Assembly (NCBI GenBank): GCA_008933795.1
Contig: WBUJ01000027.1
Location: 1 to 33,752 of the forward strand
Length of the DNA: 33,752 nt
Direction: 5' to 3'
From: Candidatus Contendibacter sp.
GTDB taxonomy: Bacteria > Pseudomonadota > Gammaproteobacteria > Competibacterales > Competibacteraceae
The stretch's first letter is position 1, and each line of letters begins with the position of its first letter. This document shows, in pieces, positions 4,797 through 32,949 of the stretch. Under the pieces are notes generated by a model. That model saw only the letters and a program-made list of their open reading frames with translations. It did not search any database and had not been told where the DNA came from. Position numbers and translations under genes: made by a program.

Positions 4797-6113
4797 TCAC
4801 CGATACCGCCGCCGTTTGCTGTGTCGGTCCCATTCCCGCAGCCGCTCCAGTTTCTCGCGTATCCGCCCTTCCAGCCCGTTCGCGGTCGGTTCGTAGTAGC
4901 GGGCGTCCTTCAGGGGTTCGGGAAAATAGCATTCGCCGGCGGCATAGGCGTTCGGTTCGTCGTGGGCGTAGCGGTAACCCTCGCCGTGCCCCAGTTCCCG
5001 CGCCAGCGCGGTGGGCACATTGCGCAAATGCGGCGGCACCTCCAGCGTGCCGTGACGTTCGACATCGCGACGGGCGGCGCCAAAGGCGGTGTAGACCGCG
5101 TTGCTCTTAGCCGCGACGGCCAGATAGACAATCGCCTGAGCGATGGTCAGTTCGCCTTCCGGGCTGCCCAGTCGTTCCTGCGCTTCCCAGGCGTTCAGCG
5201 CCAGTTGCAGGGCGCGTGGGTCGGCGTTGCCGATGTCCTCGCTGGCCATCCGCACCACCCGCCGGGCGAGGTACAGAGGATCGCAGCCGCCGTCGAGCAT
5301 CCGGGCGAACCAGTACAGCGCCGCGTCCGGGCTGCTGCCACGCACCGCCTTGTGCAGGGCGGAAATCTGGTCATAGAACAGATCGCCGCCGCGGTCGAAG
5401 CGCCGTCCCGCCCCGTCGCTCATCACCGCTTCTAACGCCGCCTCCAGCGTAACGCCGCGCGCCTCAGCCAGTTCCACCGCCAGCTCCAGCCAGATCAGGG
5501 CGCGGCGGGCATCACCGTCGGCGGCTTGGGCCAGCAGTTCCCGCGCAACCTCGGGCAATGGCCAGCGTCCGCCCAACCCCCGCTCCGGATCGCTCAGCGC
5601 GCGGTCCACCACTTGGCGAATGGCGGCGGAGTCCAGGCTGCTTAGGACGTAGACCCGCACCCGGGACAACAGGGCGTTGTTGAGGGCAAAGCCGGGGTTC
5701 TCGGTGGTGGCGCCGATGAAGGTCAGGGTGCCGTCCTCGACGTAGGGCAGGAAGGCGTCCTGCTGGGCCTTGTTGAAGCGGTGAACCTCGTCCACGAACA
5801 GCACGGTGCGGCGCTGTTGCTCGCGCCACGATGCCTGGGCCCGTTCCACCGCCGCCCGCACCTCGCGCACGCCAGCCATAGTCGCCGACAGCCGGATAAA
5901 TTCCGCCCGGCAGGCCCCGGCCAGCAATTCCGCCAGCGTGGTCTTGCCCGTACCGGGTGGCCCCCACAGCACCATGGAGTGCGGCTGGCCCCGCTCGATG
6001 GCGACCCGCAGTGGCTTGCCCGACGCCAGCAGATGAGACTGACCGACGCAGTCGTCCAACCGGCAAGGCCGCAACCGATCGGCCAGCGGCCGACGGGGAT
6101 CCGGGGCGGACAT
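4797..6113 (-). CDS. rarA: Replication-associated recombination protein A (AAA+ ATPase)
   Basis: 438 aa, cytoplasmic, acting at stalled replication forks. Walker A is at residues 51-59 (GPPGTGKTT), Walker B is LFVDEVHRF and sensor 1 is IGATTENP. The C-terminal tetramerisation region (AVYLAVAAKSNAVY, HLRNVPT, YRYAHDEPNAY) is intact. The start is the ATG at 6113, eight bases after the lolA stop, so the two are cotranscribed as in E. coli. In-frame sequence upstream is the lolA region read in another frame and is not part of the gene. Its end is 69 bp from the convergent pfp stop; a GGCGCG/CGCGCC palindrome lies between them without a T-run. Confidence 0.96.
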   Translation of the reverse strand: MSAPDPRRPLADRLRPCRLDDCVGQSHLLASGKPLRVAIERGQPHSMVLWGPPGTGKTTLAELLAGACRAEFIRLSATMAGVREVRAAVERAQASWREQQRRTVLFVDEVHRFNKAQQDAFLPYVEDGTLTFIGATTENPGFALNNALLSRVRVYVLSSLDSAAIRQVVDRALSDPERGLGGRWPLPEVARELLAQAADGDARRALIWLELAVELAEARGVTLEAALEAVMSDGAGRRFDRGGDLFYDQISALHKAVRGSSPDAALYWFARMLDGGCDPLYLARRVVRMASEDIGNADPRALQLALNAWEAQERLGSPEGELTIAQAIVYLAVAAKSNAVYTAFGAARRDVERHGTLEVPPHLRNVPTALARELGHGEGYRYAHDEPNAYAAGECYFPEPLKDARYYEPTANGLEGRIREKLERLREWDRHSKRRRYR

Positions 6114-6121
6114 CCCGTCAG

Positions 6122-6748
6122 TCAGCCAGGATCGCCGACCACATCCGCGCCGGGTGGCGGGGTAAATTTCAGCATGGCAGGGTCGAGCGTCGGATTGCGC
6201 TCCAGCTTCTGAAAATCCAGCCGGGTGCGCTGGCCGAAACTGTCCTCCAGTTCCAGGCTGACCAAGGCATCGCCCCTGAAGGCGACCCGCAGCAACCGGA
6301 ATTCGGGTTGTGGTTGTTTGGGCGTCAGGTCGTACCAGTCCAACCCATCCCGGTTGCGGACCCCACTGACGGCGAAAGTCTCTTCGATGGGAGCCGCGCC
6401 GCTCAGCAGCGCCAGCGGCGTGGAACCGAGCGCTTGGTCCAGCTTGCGCACCGTCACCTGGGCCAAATCGACATCGTAGGCCCACAGCCGCTCGCCGTCG
6501 GCGACGATGATCTGTTCGGCGGGAGTCCGATAATCCCAGCGAAACTTGCCGGGCTTGCGCATCAACATTCGACCGCTGGAGGTTTGCATCACCTGCCCCC
6601 GTTCGTCGAACACGCGCTGGATGAAGTCCGCCCGCAGCGATTGCAGGCTTTGAAAATAGCGTTGCACCGGCGAAGGCGTTGAGGTCAGCGAGGGCGCCGC
6701 CAGCATCAGCCCCAGCATCAAAACAATCAGTTTTAATGTGCGTATCAC
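6122..6748 (-). CDS. lolA: Outer-membrane lipoprotein carrier protein
   Basis: 208 aa periplasmic chaperone carrying lipoproteins from LolCDE to LolB. The GTG start at 6748 (GGGAG six bases upstream) gives the signal peptide MIRTLKLIVLMLGLMLAAP. The mature part has family features: LRADFIQRVFDERGQVMQTSSG, RKPGKFRWDY, and a C-terminal hydrophobic cavity strand region. The usual length is about 200 aa. It directly precedes rarA. The 185 bp between mraZ and lolA show no gene; a TATGAT motif about 30 bp before the start may be a -10, without a matching -35. Confidence 0.93.
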   Translation of the reverse strand: MIRTLKLIVLMLGLMLAAPSLTSTPSPVQRYFQSLQSLRADFIQRVFDERGQVMQTSSGRMLMRKPGKFRWDYRTPAEQIIVADGERLWAYDVDLAQVTVRKLDQALGSTPLALLSGAAPIEETFAVSGVRNRDGLDWYDLTPKQPQPEFRLLRVAFRGDALVSLELEDSFGQRTRLDFQKLERNPTLDPAMLKFTPPPGADVVGDPG

Positions 6749-6933
6749 GTTGCGCTCCCGAGAAAGACGTTCATCATAGACCACGCTTCGCCGATCCGTT
6801 CCGTCGGTCGGCCAGCTCGGTCGCTCAAGCACGCGCTTCCGCGCGGGCGAGACCCTTCGGATCGGGACTGAAGGCTGATGGGTTTCGAGCGAACGGACCG
6901 CAATAATCGGCCAAGCGGATGCGCGAGGCGTTT

Positions 6934-7455
6934 TTAATGCCGCGAACTTGGTGGTAGCGGCGGCAGTTCCCGGAAATCGGGCAATTGCTCCCCGCTCCGC
7001 TCCGCGCGTCCTGCGCCGCCCATGATTTCCTCGGCCAGCCGGGCGAAATCGGCTGGTTCGTCGGACAGGAGATGCTCGTACAACACCGCATCCCAACACT
7101 CGATGCGGCTGGCGTAGGCCAGCAGGATCACGGTATCGCGGATGCCGGCGTAATCCAGCAACCGCCGGGGCAGCAGCAACCGGCCGCTGCCATCCAGTTC
7201 CAGCTCGGTGGCGCCTCGGTGGAAATAGCGGACGAACTCGCGGTTTTTCTTGACAAACAGGTTCAGCCGGTCGAGCTCGGCGGTGACACGCCGCCATTCA
7301 TGCAGCGGATACAACACCAGATGCTGTTCGAAGCCGCGATTGACCACGAATCGGCCTTCCGCCTCGACGGGAAGCTGTTTTCTCAGCGCGGTCGGCAATG
7401 CGATTCGCGCCTTGGAATCGAGGCTGCATTCAAATTCGCCGAGCAAGCTGGTCAT
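6934..7455 (-). CDS. mraZ: MraZ transcriptional regulator, orphan
   Basis: 173 aa with two AbrB-like (SpoVT) DNA-binding repeats: residues about 5-50 (GEFECSLDSKARIALPTALR) and about 80-130 (GATELELDGSGRLLLPRRLLDYAG). In other bacteria MraZ binds upstream of the division/cell wall cluster and represses it. Here it is not followed by rsmH-ftsL-ftsI but by lolA-rarA. The wording LNLFVKKNREFVRYF, GFEQHLVLYPLHEW and the roughly 30-residue tail differ from enterobacterial MraZ as I remember it and look like the Bacteroidetes form, which suggests horizontal acquisition. No Shine-Dalgarno is obvious. Confidence 0.9.
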   Translation of the reverse strand: MTSLLGEFECSLDSKARIALPTALRKQLPVEAEGRFVVNRGFEQHLVLYPLHEWRRVTAELDRLNLFVKKNREFVRYFHRGATELELDGSGRLLLPRRLLDYAGIRDTVILLAYASRIECWDAVLYEHLLSDEPADFARLAEEIMGGAGRAERSGEQLPDFRELPPLPPSSRH

Positions 7456-7514
7456 AGAGTCAGCCTAGCATATCCAGGACCGAATGGCGCCCTCCAGCCT
7501 GTTTCGTTAAAACC

Positions 7515-7662
7515 GCCGGCGGCGGTATCGAGATCCTGGATTCGGTCAGCGCCAACTGGCAAGCCGAGGACGCATTCGCGGCATGTCCAGCCTGCTGGAA
7601 AAGCACGACCCCGTGGATGCCGTCTTCCGCGCCAACAACCATCTGGCGGTGGCGCCCTTCAG
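7515..7662 (+). pseudogene. Fragment of a periplasmic sugar-binding protein, frameshifted
   Basis: The plus strand reads GIEILDSVSANWQAEDAFAA in one frame and then MSSLLEKHDPVDAVF followed by RANNHLAVAPF in another. Joined across the frameshift near 7583, this matches the C-terminal half of ribose-type solute-binding proteins (NW..A...M..LL..H.D.DAVF..N...A). There is no start, no stop in register and no transporter genes nearby. It is a short relic. Confidence 0.4.
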
Positions 7663-7712
7663 GCCACCCGTTTACCCACAATTTTCAACTCATCGTCACG
7701 CTATAATTTTTC

Positions 7713-7869
7713 ATGAGGTTGTGGGAGCGTGGCATCAGTTGGGCGGGGCAGAAGTTCGAGGGCCTGGAGTTGAGGGATGCGCGACGGACCCAGCGGTCGA
7801 TCGATCTGGTGGACGATCTGGCGGCGCAGCCGATCGGGAGCATCCCGCTGACCTGCGGGGGCTGGCCGA
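7713..7869 (+). pseudogene. N-terminal fragment of an IS4/Tn5-type transposase
   Basis: From the ATG at 7713 the product reads WAGQKFEGLELRDARRTQRS, then IDLVDDLAAQPIGSIPLTCGGW. This is the N-terminal DNA-binding domain of IS4-family (Tn5-like) transposases, normally ending CGGWAE..AAYR. The similarity stops at 7869, where one base appears lost and the dsbB end follows, so only about 50 of some 450 residues remain. A perfect TATAAT at 7702-7707 lies five bases before the ATG, as if the original transposase mRNA were leaderless. It is not functional. Confidence 0.6.
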
Positions 7870-7875
7870 ATCCTC

Positions 7876-8412
7876 TCAGTCACGCCGCCGCCAGTTGCCG
7901 AACACGCCCAGCACGCCTAGTCCGAGGAACAGCAGCAAGGTCCACTCCGGTATGCTCAAACTCAACAAGGTCCAGTCCACTTTGGCGCACTCGCCGGAAC
8001 CGGTCAGCACCTCGCGCACGATTTCGTTCAGCGGCAGGGTTTCCAACAGGTAATCCAGCCCCGGTCCGCAGCGCGGCGCGTCCTCCAGCGGCAGATGCTG
8101 CAACCAGACGTGCCGGGCGGCGATGCCGGCGCCGATGCCCGCCACCAAGCCAATCAGCGCGCCATACGCTCGCGCGCCCCAATCATTCGGGTTGTGAACG
8201 GTCGCCAGCAAAAATGCCAAGCCCAGGATCAACAGGGCCAGCCGTTGGAAAATGCACAACGGGCACGGCTCCAGCCCGAGGTAAAACTGCGCGTAGTAGG
8301 CAAACCCCAAGCCCCCCGCGCAAATCAGAAAACCCAAGCCATTCAACAACCGGCGGTATGACGGTCCAAACCGATCCGGCGTGAACCCGTCGATCACTCG
8401 TAAATCTTGCAT
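7876..8412 (-). CDS. dsbB: Disulfide bond formation protein B
   Basis: 178 aa inner-membrane protein that reoxidises periplasmic DsbA and passes electrons to quinone. Four transmembrane segments are visible. The first periplasmic Cys pair is C50/C53 (EPCPLCIFQR) and the second is C115 and C142 (APRCGPGL and GSGECAKV), the complete set of redox cysteines. The start is the ATG at 8412 with GGGAG upstream. It is the last gene of a run that begins with the flavodoxin-like gene, 29 bp after the SelW-like gene. No dsbA is in the window. It abuts the transposase relic by six bases. Confidence 0.95.
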   Translation of the reverse strand: MQDLRVIDGFTPDRFGPSYRRLLNGLGFLICAGGLGFAYYAQFYLGLEPCPLCIFQRLALLILGLAFLLATVHNPNDWGARAYGALIGLVAGIGAGIAARHVWLQHLPLEDAPRCGPGLDYLLETLPLNEIVREVLTGSGECAKVDWTLLSLSIPEWTLLLFLGLGVLGVFGNWRRRD

Positions 8413-28420: not shown

Positions 28421-28693
28421 TTATTCATCGCTGATCGGCTGTTTCAGTCGCGTTCTGGCCGCTTTGTACACCTAGCTGCGGTCGCGCTGGCCCACGGCGA
28501 GCACCGTCACAAACATCGCCTCTTCATCGACGCGATAAAGGCGCGGCTGTCGGCGCGGGCTTGGCGGGCCAGATCGTTGTAGAGGGCTTCGCGCAGGTGC
28601 AGCTTGACATCGCGGTCGCACTTGCCGCGCCCGTCGCGTTTCCGGGGACGGCGCGAGGCGCAGGGCGGGATAAACGGCGGGACGTTCGGACAT
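28421..28693 (-). pseudogene. Remnant of a toxin-antitoxin pair (RHH antitoxin start fused to RelE/ParE toxin end)
   Basis: On the minus strand MSERPAVYPALRL starts at 28693; after a frame change the sequence reads CDRDVKLHLREALYNDLARQ and ARADSRA, like a ribbon-helix-helix antitoxin. After a second frame change it reads RLYRVDEEAMFVTVLAVGQR then DRS, an in-frame TAG, VYKAARTRL, ending at the TAA at 28421. YRV-(D)E-....VLAVG.R....VY is the C-terminal end of RelE/ParE toxins. Two frameshifts, a stop and loss of the middle leave no working protein. Confidence 0.5.
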
Positions 28694-28740
28694 GGGCGGC
28701 GAATTCCGTGCAACGCCGCGCACGATGAGGGCGGCGTGGC

Positions 28741-28921
28741 CTCAACTTACCGCATATAGCCGGCTGGGGTTATTCGTGCGCGGCGAACCGGACCTTATCT
28801 CCCCCTATCGACCACGCCCATGGGGCAAGGCTCCGATCCGCGCCCACACGCCCAGAACACGGGCGCGCGAACGCGAACCACCGCGTCACGGTGCGGTAGC
28901 CGCTATATGCAAGTAAGTGAG
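28741..28921. repeat. Imperfect inverted repeats (about 25 bp) bounding 181 bp
   Basis: The left arm 28741-28765 and the reverse complement of the right arm 28898-28921 share CTCA, CTTAC, GCATATAGC and GGCT in order, with a few single-base insertions. The 132 bp between are GC-rich and non-coding in my reading. It could be a MITE-like element, although I see no clear target duplication, or paired operator/promoter sites, since the left arm lies about 50 bp upstream of the toxin-antitoxin remnant. Confidence 0.35.
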
Positions 28922-28974
28922 GGGAACGCTAAGCCAAGGCGGGGCGGGCGTCAATCGGGCGGGGAGCGCGGCGC

Positions 28975-29002
28975 TGGACAGTGCGCCGGCGCGTGCTAGA
29001 CT
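28975..29002 (+). promoter_or_regulatory. Sigma-70 promoter of the candidate small RNA
   Basis: -35 TGGACA (28975-28980, 5/6), a 16-bp spacer, and -10 TAGACT (28997-29002) preceded by TGC, an extended -10. The predicted start is near 29009. Confidence 0.5.
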
Positions 29003-29008
29003 GAAATC

Positions 29009-29093
29009 CATCTCATTTTTCCGTCTTCAATTTGTCTTCGCTTTGGGCGAGCCAACCTCGCCCCTACACCCGGCTCTCCAAGCCGGGTTTTTT
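29009..29093 (+). ncRNA. Candidate small RNA, about 85 nt
   Basis: Between a good promoter and an intrinsic terminator lies a stretch with no ATG or GTG. About 36 nt of pyrimidine-rich, probably single-stranded RNA (with CAUUUUUCCGUCUUC) are followed by a perfect hairpin GGGCGAG-CCAAC-CTCGCCC (29045-29063) and the terminator hairpin (29069-29087) with six U. This is the layout of a trans-acting sRNA: a seed region, then stem-loops, then a U-tail for Hfq. It is not a family I recognise. It could alternatively be a leader or attenuator that no longer has a gene. Confidence 0.45.
29069..29093 (+). terminator. Rho-independent terminator
   Basis: CCCGGCT (29069-29075) pairs with AGCCGGG (29081-29087), loop CTCCA, followed directly by six T. 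It ends the candidate small RNA; no open reading frame lies just upstream. Confidence 0.75.
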
Positions 29094-29208
29094 GTAGCGC
29101 CAATGCCGGGTTGGCGGCTCATTTTGAAACCAGTTGATTGCAAAATGCAACGCCATTCCCTTTCATCGCGCCGCTGCAAGGCGGTTCATCGTCGCCGCCA
29201 GCGCTTCG

Positions 29209-29382
29209 CTATCGGTTCGCGCCGATTCGATGCCCTGCGAGCAAGGATTCCGCCACCGCATCAGGAATCGTGCCCTGGTGTCGGTGGATCTCAATGAACG
29301 GGTTCAGCAACTGTAGGTTGCAATCCAGCGCATCCCGATGAGTTTCCAGTTCCGTCCACGCCGCCGGGTTCCGCCAAGTCAT
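29209..29382 (-). CDS. Hypothetical 57-aa protein, possibly a degraded gene
   Basis: The ATG at 29382 has GAGAGGA eight bases upstream and encodes MTWRNPAAWTELETHRDALD, then CNLQLLNPFIEIHRHQGTIPD, ending at TAG 29209. The codon use looks coding. In-frame sequence extends upstream to 29517 (including MPLWTCVDPARVEIGFFKLE), and a neighbouring frame continues past the stop as ESARTDSEALAATMNRLAA to a TGA at 29163, so this may be the middle of a longer gene broken by a frameshift. I do not recognise the family. It is antisense to and upstream of the methyltransferase operon. 29383-29678 otherwise shows no clear promoter. Confidence 0.3.
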   Translation of the reverse strand: MTWRNPAAWTELETHRDALDCNLQLLNPFIEIHRHQGTIPDAVAESLLAGHRIGANR

Positions 29383-29678
29383 CAATTCGGTCCTCTCAAG
29401 CTTGAAAAAGCCGATCTCCACCCGTGCCGGATCAACGCACGTCCATAGCGGCATGAGGTTTGCCCTTGACTCTTTGCCAGAAATCAGCCAAGGGTTGACT
29501 CGACCGGACCCTGTCATCAGGGCTTTCCGTGGGCTATGGTTGCAAAAGAAATAACCCTTCGTTGAAGCGCGGAAGAAATAGCGGCCTTGGCTGACGCGAT
29601 GATAATCTCGATCCGCTTGGAGCGGCGCGGCTACCGAGCGTTAGCGACGACTAGAAACACCAACAACAATCCGGCCCA

Positions 29679-31307
29679 ATGACCAACCACCTGTACTACG
29701 GCGACAACCTCCAAGTCCTCCGCGAGCACATCGCCACCGAGAGTGTAGACCTGATTTACCTTGATCCGCCGTTCAACAGCCAGGCCACCTACAACGTGCT
29801 GTTTCGTTCGCCGAAAGGCGAGCAGTCGCAGGCCCAGATTGAGGCGTTTGAGGATACTTGGGCTTGGAACAACAGCGCCGAGCAAGCTTTTGATGAGGTG
29901 ATGACCAGCGGCAATACGGATGCTGCCGAGATGCTGCGGGCCATGCGGGCGTTCCTGAAAGAAAACGACATGATGGCGTATCTTGCCATGATGGCCGTTC
30001 GGTTGCTGGAACTACATCGAGTGTTAAAACCGACTGGGAGTTTGTATTTGCATTGCGATCCAACAGCAAGCCATTATTTGAAGATTATGTTGGATGCGGT
30101 GTTTAAGAAGGAGAATTACCGGAATGAAATCATATGGAAGCGGACCACCACTCATTCAGACAGCAAGACATGGAGCCGAGTATCAGACACTATCCTATTC
30201 TATACGGAAGGCTCTAACTCCTTTACTTGGAACACTCCGCGTGACATACACACAGACAGCTATTTAGATACAAAATACCGCTATCAAGAATCGAATGGTC
30301 GTCGGTATAGACTACATGACATGACCAGCCCTAACCCTCGGCCAAATCTCACTTACGAGTGGTTGGGATTTCCACCACCCCCTAAAGGCTGGCGGTTCTC
30401 GCGCGAAACTATGGAAAAGCTACATAGTGAAGACCGTATTGTTTACCCAAAGCTTCCCGATGGAATGTTTGATTTCCACCGACGTCCACAGGTAAAACGG
30501 TATCTCGATGAGATGTCAGGCGGTGGCGTGATGGGTAACGTTTGGATCGACATCCCGCCTATCAACTCCCAAGCCCAAGAACGCCTCGGCTATCCCACCC
30601 AAAAGCCGCTGACCCTGCTCGAACGCATCATCAGCGCCAGCAGCAACCCCGGCGACGTGGTACTTGACCCCTTTTGTGGCTGCGGCACGGCGGTTCACGC
30701 CGCGCAGAAGCTAGGCCGTCAATGGGTCGGCATCGACATCACCCACCTGGCCATCAGCCTGATCGAGCAACGCCTGAACAACGCCTTTCCCGGCATTGCC
30801 TTCGAGGTTCACGGCACGCCCAAGGACTTGGCCGGCGCTCGCGATTTGGCCGAGCGCGACAAGTATCAATTCCAGTGGTGGGCGGTGTCGCTGGTCAACG
30901 CCGTGCCCTACGGCGGCAAGAAGAAAGGCGCGGATACCGGCATCGACGGGATCATCTACTTCAAACCGGACGGCAAGACCACCGAGAAAGCCATCGTCTC
31001 GGTCAAGGGCGGGGCCAACGTGGGCGTGGCGATGGTCAAGGACTTGATTGCCACCGTGGACCGGGAAAAGGCCAAAATCGGCGTGTTCGTCACCTTGGCC
31101 GAGCCGACGAAGCCGATGGAGAAGGAAGCCGTCACCGCTGGTTTCTATCAAACCGACTACGGCAAATTCCCCAAGATTCAGATTCTGACCATCGAGAACC
31201 TGTTCGCCGGGAAAAAGCCACAAATGCCGTGGCTCGACCCGACCGCTTTCAAGAAAGCGGCCCAGGAAGACATGAACGCGGCGGGGAAGCAGGAGAAATT
31301 GATCTAG
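29679..31307 (+). CDS. DNA methyltransferase (beta class) with C-terminal PD-(D/E)XK-like domain
   Basis: 542 aa. The catalytic motif IV DPPF is at residues 29-32 and the SAM-binding motif I (DPFCGCGT) at 330-337, the permuted order of beta-class N6-adenine/N4-cytosine methyltransferases. The middle (about 105-290) is the target recognition region. After about residue 390 a second domain reads GADTGIDGIIYF, then KAIVSVKGG: Asp423 and Lys443 fit an Mrr-like restriction nuclease core, with Ser in the usual Glu/Gln position. So it may be a combined modification-restriction protein or a methyltransferase with an inactive nuclease fold. The recognition region is clearly lower in GC than the ends (hand counts 23/60 at 30061-30120 versus 37/60 at 30901-30960). 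It is followed after 28 bp by the TerD-nuclease gene. Confidence 0.88.
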   Translation: MTNHLYYGDNLQVLREHIATESVDLIYLDPPFNSQATYNVLFRSPKGEQSQAQIEAFEDTWAWNNSAEQAFDEVMTSGNTDAAEMLRAMRAFLKENDMMAYLAMMAVRLLELHRVLKPTGSLYLHCDPTASHYLKIMLDAVFKKENYRNEIIWKRTTTHSDSKTWSRVSDTILFYTEGSNSFTWNTPRDIHTDSYLDTKYRYQESNGRRYRLHDMTSPNPRPNLTYEWLGFPPPPKGWRFSRETMEKLHSEDRIVYPKLPDGMFDFHRRPQVKRYLDEMSGGGVMGNVWIDIPPINSQAQERLGYPTQKPLTLLERIISASSNPGDVVLDPFCGCGTAVHAAQKLGRQWVGIDITHLAISLIEQRLNNAFPGIAFEVHGTPKDLAGARDLAERDKYQFQWWAVSLVNAVPYGGKKKGADTGIDGIIYFKPDGKTTEKAIVSVKGGANVGVAMVKDLIATVDREKAKIGVFVTLAEPTKPMEKEAVTAGFYQTDYGKFPKIQILTIENLFAGKKPQMPWLDPTAFKKAAQEDMNAAGKQEKLI

Positions 31308-31335
31308 GCGCGCGCTGACAGGCAAAGAATCGATC

Positions 31336-32697
31336 ATGACCCAATCTCTCCCCCAAGGCGGTAACGCCGCGCTGGCCCAGGCCGACCCCACCGCCCGCAC
31401 GACCTTCATCGGCCTAAGCTGGGAACGGCCCGCGACCGCCTCGCCGGTGGAGATCGACGCCAGCCTGTTCCTGCTCGATGCGGCGGGCGTGGTGCGCGAC
31501 GACCGCGATTTCGTGTTCTACAACCAGGAAACCGACGCCAGCGGCGCGGTGTATCGACTTCCCGCCGCCGAACGGGAATCCGCCCACGACCGGGATGGCT
31601 TTGTCATCACCCTGCCGGCGCTGGCCGAGGACGTGCAGCGACTGGCTTTTTGCCTGACGCTGGACGCCGCCAGCGCCGGCGACGCCACCTTTGGCGCGGT
31701 GCCCTGGGTGCAGGCCCGTGTCGTCAATCACGAGAGCGGACGCGAACTCCTCCACTACCGCAGCGGCGGCGAACTGGGCGCGGAAACCGCACTCGTCGTT
31801 GCCGAACTTTACCGCCATCGCGACGGCTGGAAATTCCGGGCTGTGGGCCAGGGCTTCGCCGGCGGCTTGCGGGCGCTGGCCGCGCATTTTGGGGTGTTGG
31901 TCGCCGATGCGGAGTCGCCCAGCGCCAACCTGGCGGCGACCGAGGAGGAGGCATTGACCGTTCCCGCCCTCACGCTGGACAAGGACACCGCCGAATCGGA
32001 GGCTGCCAGTGGGCCGAAACGCCGTCGCCGACGCACCCTGCAAGATGTCCTCACCGTCCAGGTAGAGGAGATCAAAACCCGCTACCGCGCGATCCAGCCG
32101 CTGTTGAAACGTGCCCTACAGGACAGCCCCAACGAGAGCCAGAGCCGGCTACTGCTCGACCGCATCTTGCAAGACGTGCTCGGCTACGCCCTGAGCGAGA
32201 TCAAGACCGAGCAGAAGATTCAAGGGCGGGCTGCCGATTACGTGCTGGCGCCGGATGGGGTGGATGCGCTGGTAATCGAAGCCAAGCGGCTGGGTGCTCC
32301 ACTACGCGACAAGCAAATCTTTCAAGCCACTTCCTACGCCGCTTACGCCGGCATCCGCTGGGCGCTGTTGACCAACGTCGTGAACTGGCAACTCTACCGG
32401 GTCGCCACCGAGGACAAGGTCGAAGCCGATCTGGTGTTTGCCCTGGATTTGCAAAGCGGCCTGGACGACGACAGCGCCTACCGGCTGATGTTGCTCTCGA
32501 AAGCCGGCATCGCCCGCTGCGAACTGCTGGAAAAGCTCTGGCGCAAGAAGGTGGCCCTGAGTCCGGAAAGCCTGATCGCGGCGATCCTCAACGAGGAAGT
32601 GTTGAACAAAATCCGCGCCGTGCTGCTGCGGGAGCGCGGCTGTCCCCTGACCCATCAGGAAATCCAGGAAGCTATCGAGCGGGAGTTGTTGCGGTAG
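31336..32697 (+). CDS. TerD domain fused to HsdR-N-like PD-(D/E)XK nuclease domain
   Basis: 453 aa, no signal peptide. Residues about 24-187 are a TerD (tellurite/stress, calcium-binding) domain: EIDASLFLLDAAGVVRDDRD, FVFYNQ, and the diagnostic ELYRHRDGWKFRAVGQGFAG. A disordered acidic linker ends in a basic run (KRRRRR, 228-233). Residues about 235-360 resemble the N-terminal nuclease domain of type I HsdR: LLLDRILQDVLGY, EIKTEQKI, then D301 in GRAADYVL, E315 and K317 in VIEAKR, and WALLTNVVNWQLYRV. The PD-(D/E)XK residues are intact. The rest (to 453) is helical with LTHQEIQEAIERELL. No helicase motor is present. It is in an operon with the methyltransferase, so it is probably a restriction or stress-defence effector. 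The combination is not one I know as a characterised system. Confidence 0.85.
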   Translation: MTQSLPQGGNAALAQADPTARTTFIGLSWERPATASPVEIDASLFLLDAAGVVRDDRDFVFYNQETDASGAVYRLPAAERESAHDRDGFVITLPALAEDVQRLAFCLTLDAASAGDATFGAVPWVQARVVNHESGRELLHYRSGGELGAETALVVAELYRHRDGWKFRAVGQGFAGGLRALAAHFGVLVADAESPSANLAATEEEALTVPALTLDKDTAESEAASGPKRRRRRTLQDVLTVQVEEIKTRYRAIQPLLKRALQDSPNESQSRLLLDRILQDVLGYALSEIKTEQKIQGRAADYVLAPDGVDALVIEAKRLGAPLRDKQIFQATSYAAYAGIRWALLTNVVNWQLYRVATEDKVEADLVFALDLQSGLDDDSAYRLMLLSKAGIARCELLEKLWRKKVALSPESLIAAILNEEVLNKIRAVLLRERGCPLTHQEIQEAIERELLR

Positions 32698-32707
32698 GGG
32701 CTGGACG

Positions 32708-32949
32708 GTGAACGGTGCTTTTCTCCTCGACTACGGTCTCTACCTGCTGAACCGAGGCGTCCAGCCCGAAACGCGGCGGGTGTTTTTCACTCGCCCCCGG
32801 CGGTGTTTTTCCTTGACATCACTCTGGGCGCGGTGCAACAGGGAATGTACGAGCGGTTCGCGCCGCTGATCGTGCGGCGGGTCGCGGTCAGGTCGCGAAT
32901 CGCGTTCAATCCCGGTTCAGCTATGGCGGGATACCGTGTGGCGCCATGA
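32708..32949 (+). pseudogene. Possible frameshifted gene remnant
   Basis: A GTG at 32708 opens NGAFLLDYGLYLLNRGVQPE then TRRVFF; a one-base shift near 32790 continues as PPAVFFLDITLGAVQQGMYE, RFAPLIVRRVAV, ending at TGA 32949. Both halves look like real protein and join smoothly, suggesting a single broken gene of about 80 residues. I do not recognise the family. A perfect TTGACA at 32814-32819 has no matching -10. Confidence 0.3.

Follow-up and report, generated by a model that had tools for sequence, protein, structure and literature searches.

A TerD domain joined to an HsdR-type PD-(D/E)XK nuclease module in a Candidatus Contendibacter contig

Introduction

TerD domains (PF02342; structures 3ibz and 2kxt) have been discussed from several angles. 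In the available excerpts of the papers cited, TerD is counted among the domains possibly recognising nucleotide derivatives (PMC7159879), and TerB and TerD are regarded as possible signal sensors (PMC7824862). Ter-type domains also have precedents in phage defence: comparable excerpts describe a TerB-like domain in the Shango system (PMC10250203) and a “TerD-dependent anti-phage system” of which one part is McrBC-like (PMC3710099). The role of TerD in stress and phage resistance remains unclear. Here, we analyse a 33,752-nucleotide stretch of DNA from Candidatus Contendibacter sp. (contig WBUJ01000027.1 of assembly GCA_008933795.1; hereafter called the “window”), in which a single gene at 31336..32697 (+) encodes a TerD domain followed by a nuclease module. 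As TerD is naturally joined here to an enzyme whose activity is easy to follow, its function becomes accessible to testing, since any factor recruiting or releasing it should turn DNA cutting on or off.

The fusion shares the complete domain match and the fold with the TerD family, but differs from the canonical TerDs in that it lacks the GDNxTGxGxGDDE loop and has a nuclease attached. The nuclease resembles the cutting domains of the type IIG enzymes BpuSI (3s1s) and DrdV (7lvv) and of type I HsdR (3h1t, 2w00), whereas the methylase, specificity and motor parts of these enzymes are missing, and TerD is placed in front instead. TerD-trypsin proteins, which were tabulated in 2008 (PMC2605481, in the portion available), also have TerD preceding the enzyme in one chain, but the enzyme is a protease rather than a nuclease. 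The zinc-ribbon-like HSDR_N_2 proteins (P0138, P0146, and P0202; about 290 aa) have the nuclease module in common with the fusion, at 44–51% identity, while a short CxxC-type N-terminus occupies the place of TerD. NucC and SduA, which are nucleases of defence systems, have another control part and no demonstrated sequence relation to the fusion.

TerD-enzyme fusions are known as a kind, as exemplified by TerD-trypsin, while for the TerD-PD-(D/E)XK branch no functional description of a TerD-HsdR_N protein was found in the literature searched, a 2012 Ter review being outside its scope. An earlier note on this DNA, made from the sequence alone, had likewise regarded such a fusion, paired with a methyltransferase, as uncharacterised to its knowledge. 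In the databases, homologues bear the automatic name “stress response protein SCP2/predicted type IV restriction endonuclease”.

Architecture and recurrence of the fusion

The fusion gene encodes 453 aa plus a stop codon, and its assignment is based on the open reading frame (ORF), Pfam, the homologues, and the ratio of nonsynonymous to synonymous substitution rates (dN/dS). The TerD domain (residues 1–185; 31336..31890, +), which lacks the acidic loop, is covered completely by PF02342, with 168.1 bits against a cut-off of 25.3, and fold prediction and structure comparison revealed the TerD fold in this half. It is followed by a linker with a predicted local distance difference test score (pLDDT) below 50 (residues 193–229; 31912..32022, +), and by the PD-(D/E)XK nuclease module with a helical C-terminus (residues 235–453; 32038..32694, +). 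Both the Pfam model match and the predicted fold of this module are of the HsdR-N type. D301 (32236–32238), E315 (32278–32280), and K317 (32284–32286), all within 32236..32286 (+), form the D + E-x-K catalytic signature of PD-(D/E)XK nucleases. The assignment of the nuclease half takes Pfam, the catalytic residues, and a second-look structural alignment together; Foldseek by itself was weak (best E 0.0046), and no solved nuclease was retrieved by sequence with a profile of the module. According to Pfam, the 453-aa chain lacks the helicase motor that follows the nuclease domain in HsdR. The fusion is a TerD domain joined to an HsdR-type PD-(D/E)XK nuclease module, and Pfam and fold prediction agree with the earlier note that both reside in one protein.

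How widely does this architecture recur? Among the best 120 of 245 homologues, 111 contain both domain families and nine contain TerD alone. D301, E315, and K317, which the earlier note had found in place, are kept in all 108 of these listed homologues that have at least 400 aa (108/108), where E267, E292, Q330, Y334, and Y354 are invariant as well. The catalytic residues are also invariant across all 54 rows of nuclease alignment A4, which is composed of 45 nuclease-search proteins, eight locus pieces, and the window piece. Matches to the fusion were found at 25 genome loci. Of these, 18 cover almost the full length of the protein, and the copies in L011 and L027–L032 are partial, end-cut, or disrupted. 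Moreover, one homologue with both domains, P0094 (named Methylomicrobium lacus), comes from an assembly with a longest contig of 4.38 Mb. The recurrence of both domains across the homologues rules out two separate genes merged by an assembly or calling error, the chance of which we regard as practically nil, and the architecture is a true fusion, as had been supposed.

The fusion loci occur in Competibacteraceae, Chromatiaceae, Thiotrichaceae, Verrucomicrobium, Desulfamplus, Electrothrix, Thiovulum, Sulfurovum, and other taxa, and the relatives include Campylobacterota. Within the genus, the whole fusion is present in two of eight genomes (the window's own genome and G006). Five of the 39 family genomes carry the fusion, as does one of the 369 genomes of the class sample, which is the own genome. 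Such a very patchy distribution is unlike that of core repair genes. It speaks against a nuclease for DNA repair or genome maintenance that TerD would place under oxidative or metal stress, a role that we consider quite unlikely.

The comparisons with L008, L009, and L010 yielded dN/dS values of 0.11, 0.10, and 0.12, respectively, for the whole gene, 0.20, 0.10, and 0.16 for the TerD part, and 0.06, 0.07, and 0.08 for residues 235–375. Since dN/dS is low in both the TerD part and the nuclease core, purifying selection keeps both halves of the fusion.

None of the 2,619 matching records of annotated plasmids, and none of the 11 matching records of annotated phages, has one place that covers 80% of the fusion query. 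In IMG/VR, the whole fusion is present in three of 29 loci (L056–L058). Incomplete or disrupted copies were also observed. In one genome of the same genus (G005:C18:11496-11582), only residues 425–453 of the fusion are left, with 90% identity, as a likely remnant. In a Sulfurovum metagenome-assembled genome (MAG) and in Chromatium okenii LaCa, copies of the fusion (L030 and L031) are divided between two reading frames, and the Chromatium okenii genome additionally carries a whole copy (L024).

The neighbouring methyltransferase

The gene in front of the fusion encodes an N6_N4 methyltransferase (MTase) of 542 aa with a C-terminal Mrr_cat domain, as assigned by Pfam (29679..31307, +), and ends 28 nt upstream of the fusion on the same strand. 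The earlier note had regarded the two as a pair in which the nuclease part acts on unmodified DNA. This proximity favours a restriction-modification pair, as does a distant MTase (24% identity) located 2.4 kb upstream of the fusion in L010, within which two short window matches fall. The sister locus L008, in a Candidatus Contendobacter MAG, argues against such a pair. This locus, which coincides with L034 in G006, has a fusion with 89% identity, and window positions 28541–28819, 28942–29572, and 31137–32754 align with its positions 5282–5561, 5629–6220, and 6272–7884, respectively. About 1.56 kb of the window, including nearly the entire MTase gene, thus has no counterpart in L008, where the MTase is reduced to its last 61 codons beside the intact fusion. 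The L008 genome has no further MTase match at E <= 1e-30. A protective methylase model predicts that the loss of the MTase is lethal, yet an intact nuclease adjoins the stub, and the pairing model is therefore disfavoured. The cutting of unmodified DNA is likewise not supported, as a nuclease restrained by this MTase would not be expected to outlive it.

The other loci are consistent with this observation. In L009–L011, the similarity to the window is essentially limited to the fusion gene: it begins at 31332, four bases before the fusion ATG, and ends just beyond the fusion stop, at 32699 in L009 and 32701 in L010, or near the end of the contig in L011. The MTase is absent beside the fusion in L009 and in L011–L032, with no match to it in L009 or L011. 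Conversely, the MTase-Mrr protein exists elsewhere without an adjoining fusion: a search of 20 genomes gave MTase matches at the same threshold in nine, among them the own genome. As judged from these loci, the MTase is no stable partner of the fusion but a neighbour, and the restriction-modification pair, which we consider very unlikely, is rejected as a general explanation.

The MTase-Mrr proteins have features of their own. The usual Mrr motif is Q/E-x-K. In the window protein and its relatives L096–L098, the Mrr_cat domain reads S-V-K at this position. Some Chromatiaceae genomes contain several copies of relatives, and 16 match segments were counted in G410.

The TerD half

The GDNxTGxGxGDDE loop is absent in all 61 rows of the alignment of fusions, A2, and in all 121 proteins P0001–P0121. 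A2 consists of 48 of these 121 proteins and 13 of the 25 loci, with near-copies, fragments, and any copies that were disrupted or end-cut omitted. The acidic loop is presumably the Ca2+ site of the canonical TerDs; Klebsiella TerD binds Ca2+ (PMC8123226, in the excerpt available). The earlier note had described the TerD part of the fusion as Ca2+-binding. Because the loop, as the inferred Ca2+ site, is missing from all of the fusions scanned, Ca2+ sensing by this TerD appears doubtful. Among the listed homologues of at least 400 aa, D41 is kept in 107 of 108 (with one gap) and N63 in all 108.

Among the 42 distinct TerD ORFs scanned from selected loci, 27 have the loop and 15, including the fusion of the window, do not, the canonical group being defined by the loop motif itself. 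When 64 TerD domains were placed in a tree, the 27 rows with the loop fell in a single supported branch (99/99), which also includes two short TerDs without it.

TerD also heads other effectors. In the own genome, it is joined to Trypsin_2 (L007:805-2049, −), and another TerD is combined with a hydrophobic stretch, read by eye, without a further Pfam domain (L006:1450-2736, +). A genome of the same genus encodes TerD fused to Virul_Fac (PF10139) in a chain of 1106 aa (L099:269-3589, +), and TerD is joined to a TerF-type vWA domain in L037. Thiospirillum jenense encodes a TerD-HNH endonuclease fusion of 546 aa (L101:821-2458, −), and the same genome also holds a TerD-nuclease fusion (L019). In all of these TerD-trypsin, TerD-membrane-stretch, TerD-Virul_Fac, TerD-vWA, and TerD-HNH proteins the loop is absent, as it is in three short TerDs (two in L004 and one in L041). 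Long TerD frames like that of L099 were observed in further family members.

The nuclease module and its exchangeable N-terminus

A search with the nuclease half by itself retrieved relatives of about 290 aa without TerD. Paired CxxC-type motifs lie within the first 50 residues in 56 of the 59 TerD-less rows. We chose the term “zinc-ribbon-like” because the Zn_ribbon_4 match of P0146 (24.6 bits) is under the cut-off of 30.3. The TerD label changes four times in a tree of 133 nuclease rows. At least three of these changes are forced by the starred branches, and two of the four depend on P0180, a probable fragment with no start Met, and P0213, which has a very long branch and another N-terminus. 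With P0180 and P0213 set aside, at least two TerD/ribbon exchanges appear to be left by a reading of the tree, which was not rebuilt. The part in front of the nuclease module is exchangeable, in the form of either TerD or a zinc-ribbon-like segment. This suggests that an HsdR-type cutting module can exist without a motor, a methylase, or a specificity subunit, with an interchangeable part at its N-terminus.

Proposed mechanism

How might the TerD half control the nuclease? With a confidence just short of even, we propose that the fusion works alone as an effector, without the neighbouring MTase, and that its TerD half would decide where or when DNA is cut. In favour of this proposal are the recurrent two-part architecture, the kept catalytic residues, the selection on both halves, the lack of a neighbour common to distant loci, the exchangeable N-terminus, the other effectors headed by TerD, and the precedents of Ter-type domains in phage defence. 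From its similarity to the nuclease domains of BpuSI, DrdV, and HsdR, the module would be expected to cut double-stranded DNA. TerD would replace the motor, methylase, and specificity parts, either through docking to other TerD proteins or to a Ter assembly, or through the binding of a stress ligand. The docking or the ligand would then bring two nuclease domains together, and under stress or phage attack this pairing would turn on the cutting. A role of the fusion in defence or stress is plausible.

A more specific form of this proposal, which is possible but somewhat unlikely, is that TerD serves for docking in a modular repertoire of effectors that has escaped recognition, in which loop-less and Ca2+-independent TerDs carry nucleases (PD-(D/E)XK and HNH), proteases, and other effectors to the Ter stress assembly. 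The fusion, as a single gene, would then provide the DNA-cutting arm of this repertoire, in the form of a suicide or anti-phage nuclease that Ter signalling sets off. In support of the main proposal, some loci link the fusion with ter genes. L017 lies within a ter locus with two TerD genes, three vWA genes (one with TerY_C), PP2C, and AIM24, and in both Electrothrix loci (L017 and L018) an AIM24-family gene lies 12 nt downstream of the fusion. In L026 and L057, a TerD gene is directly upstream of the fusion, with an 8-nt overlap and a 3-nt gap, respectively. A separate TerD match at E <= 1e-60, a level below which the fusions themselves stay, was found in 17 of the 19 carrier genomes and in 10 of the 369 class-sample genomes (own included), where the carriers are from several phyla and the sample is from one class. 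As this difference vanishes within the family, we dropped the association between carriers and canonical TerDs as proof.

Several observations weigh against our proposal. Within the family, canonical TerD is present in three of the five carriers and in 25 of the 39 genomes overall, without an excess, and two of the 19 carriers have no strong separate TerD match. Only three of 110 near ORFs from 20 loci are TerD (in L017 and L026), and most loci have no ter genes; this survey comprises 110 of 111 ORFs, one over the MTase stub of L008 having been dropped. These near-ORF counts stand without a control set, and no enrichment of defence genes around the fusion is claimed. In the tree of 64 TerD domains, the 23 nuclease-fused rows are outside the loop branch but form no single clade. 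Finally, PADLOC provided no clear model for the fusion, the only match being REase_MTase_IIG with 15 bits and E 0.0011.

Alternatively, TerD or the helical C-terminus may recognise modified or unusual foreign DNA, which the nuclease would cut directly in the manner of a type IV restriction enzyme. The absence of a conserved methylase beside this lone HsdR-type nuclease is in keeping with enzymes that cleave modified DNA, several homologues were named “predicted type IV restriction endonuclease” by JGI, and an Mrr_cat gene (L021) or a GmrSD_N gene (L009) adjoins the fusion. However, Pfam detected no modified-base reader domain of a known type in the fusion, and to our knowledge TerD does not read DNA. 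We consider this type IV-like activity unlikely.

Genomic context

No neighbour gene is common to more than two or three fusion loci, and Pfam detected no ter genes among the window neighbours scanned. Besides the Mrr_cat and GmrSD_N genes, restriction or defence genes near the fusion include TIR/EAD7 in L008 and NYN in L022, and in L010 MTase and TIR genes are near the fusion, with a ResIII gene further upstream. Many near ORFs are housekeeping genes, such as those for DnaE (L012), an M17 aminopeptidase (L016), and a Lyase_1 protein (L026).

Individual loci showed further features. In the IMG/VR locus L057, where the TerD gene located 3 nt upstream is a strong match, a Rha gene and a ParB-methyltransferase gene are also near the fusion. 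In L058, a BRO-N gene is near the fusion, and a FIST-GGDEF gene is upstream in both L057 and L058. Directly upstream of the fusion in L011, three co-directional ORFs with 4-nt overlaps (L011:782-7829) encode 963 aa, 566 aa with DUF2357, and 820 aa without a Pfam match. In Thiovulum, the large chain of ribonucleotide reductase (L026:3145-5898, +) has an internal HINT-type stretch, with a PT-HINT match of 27.4 bits just below the cut-off, which is perhaps an intein.
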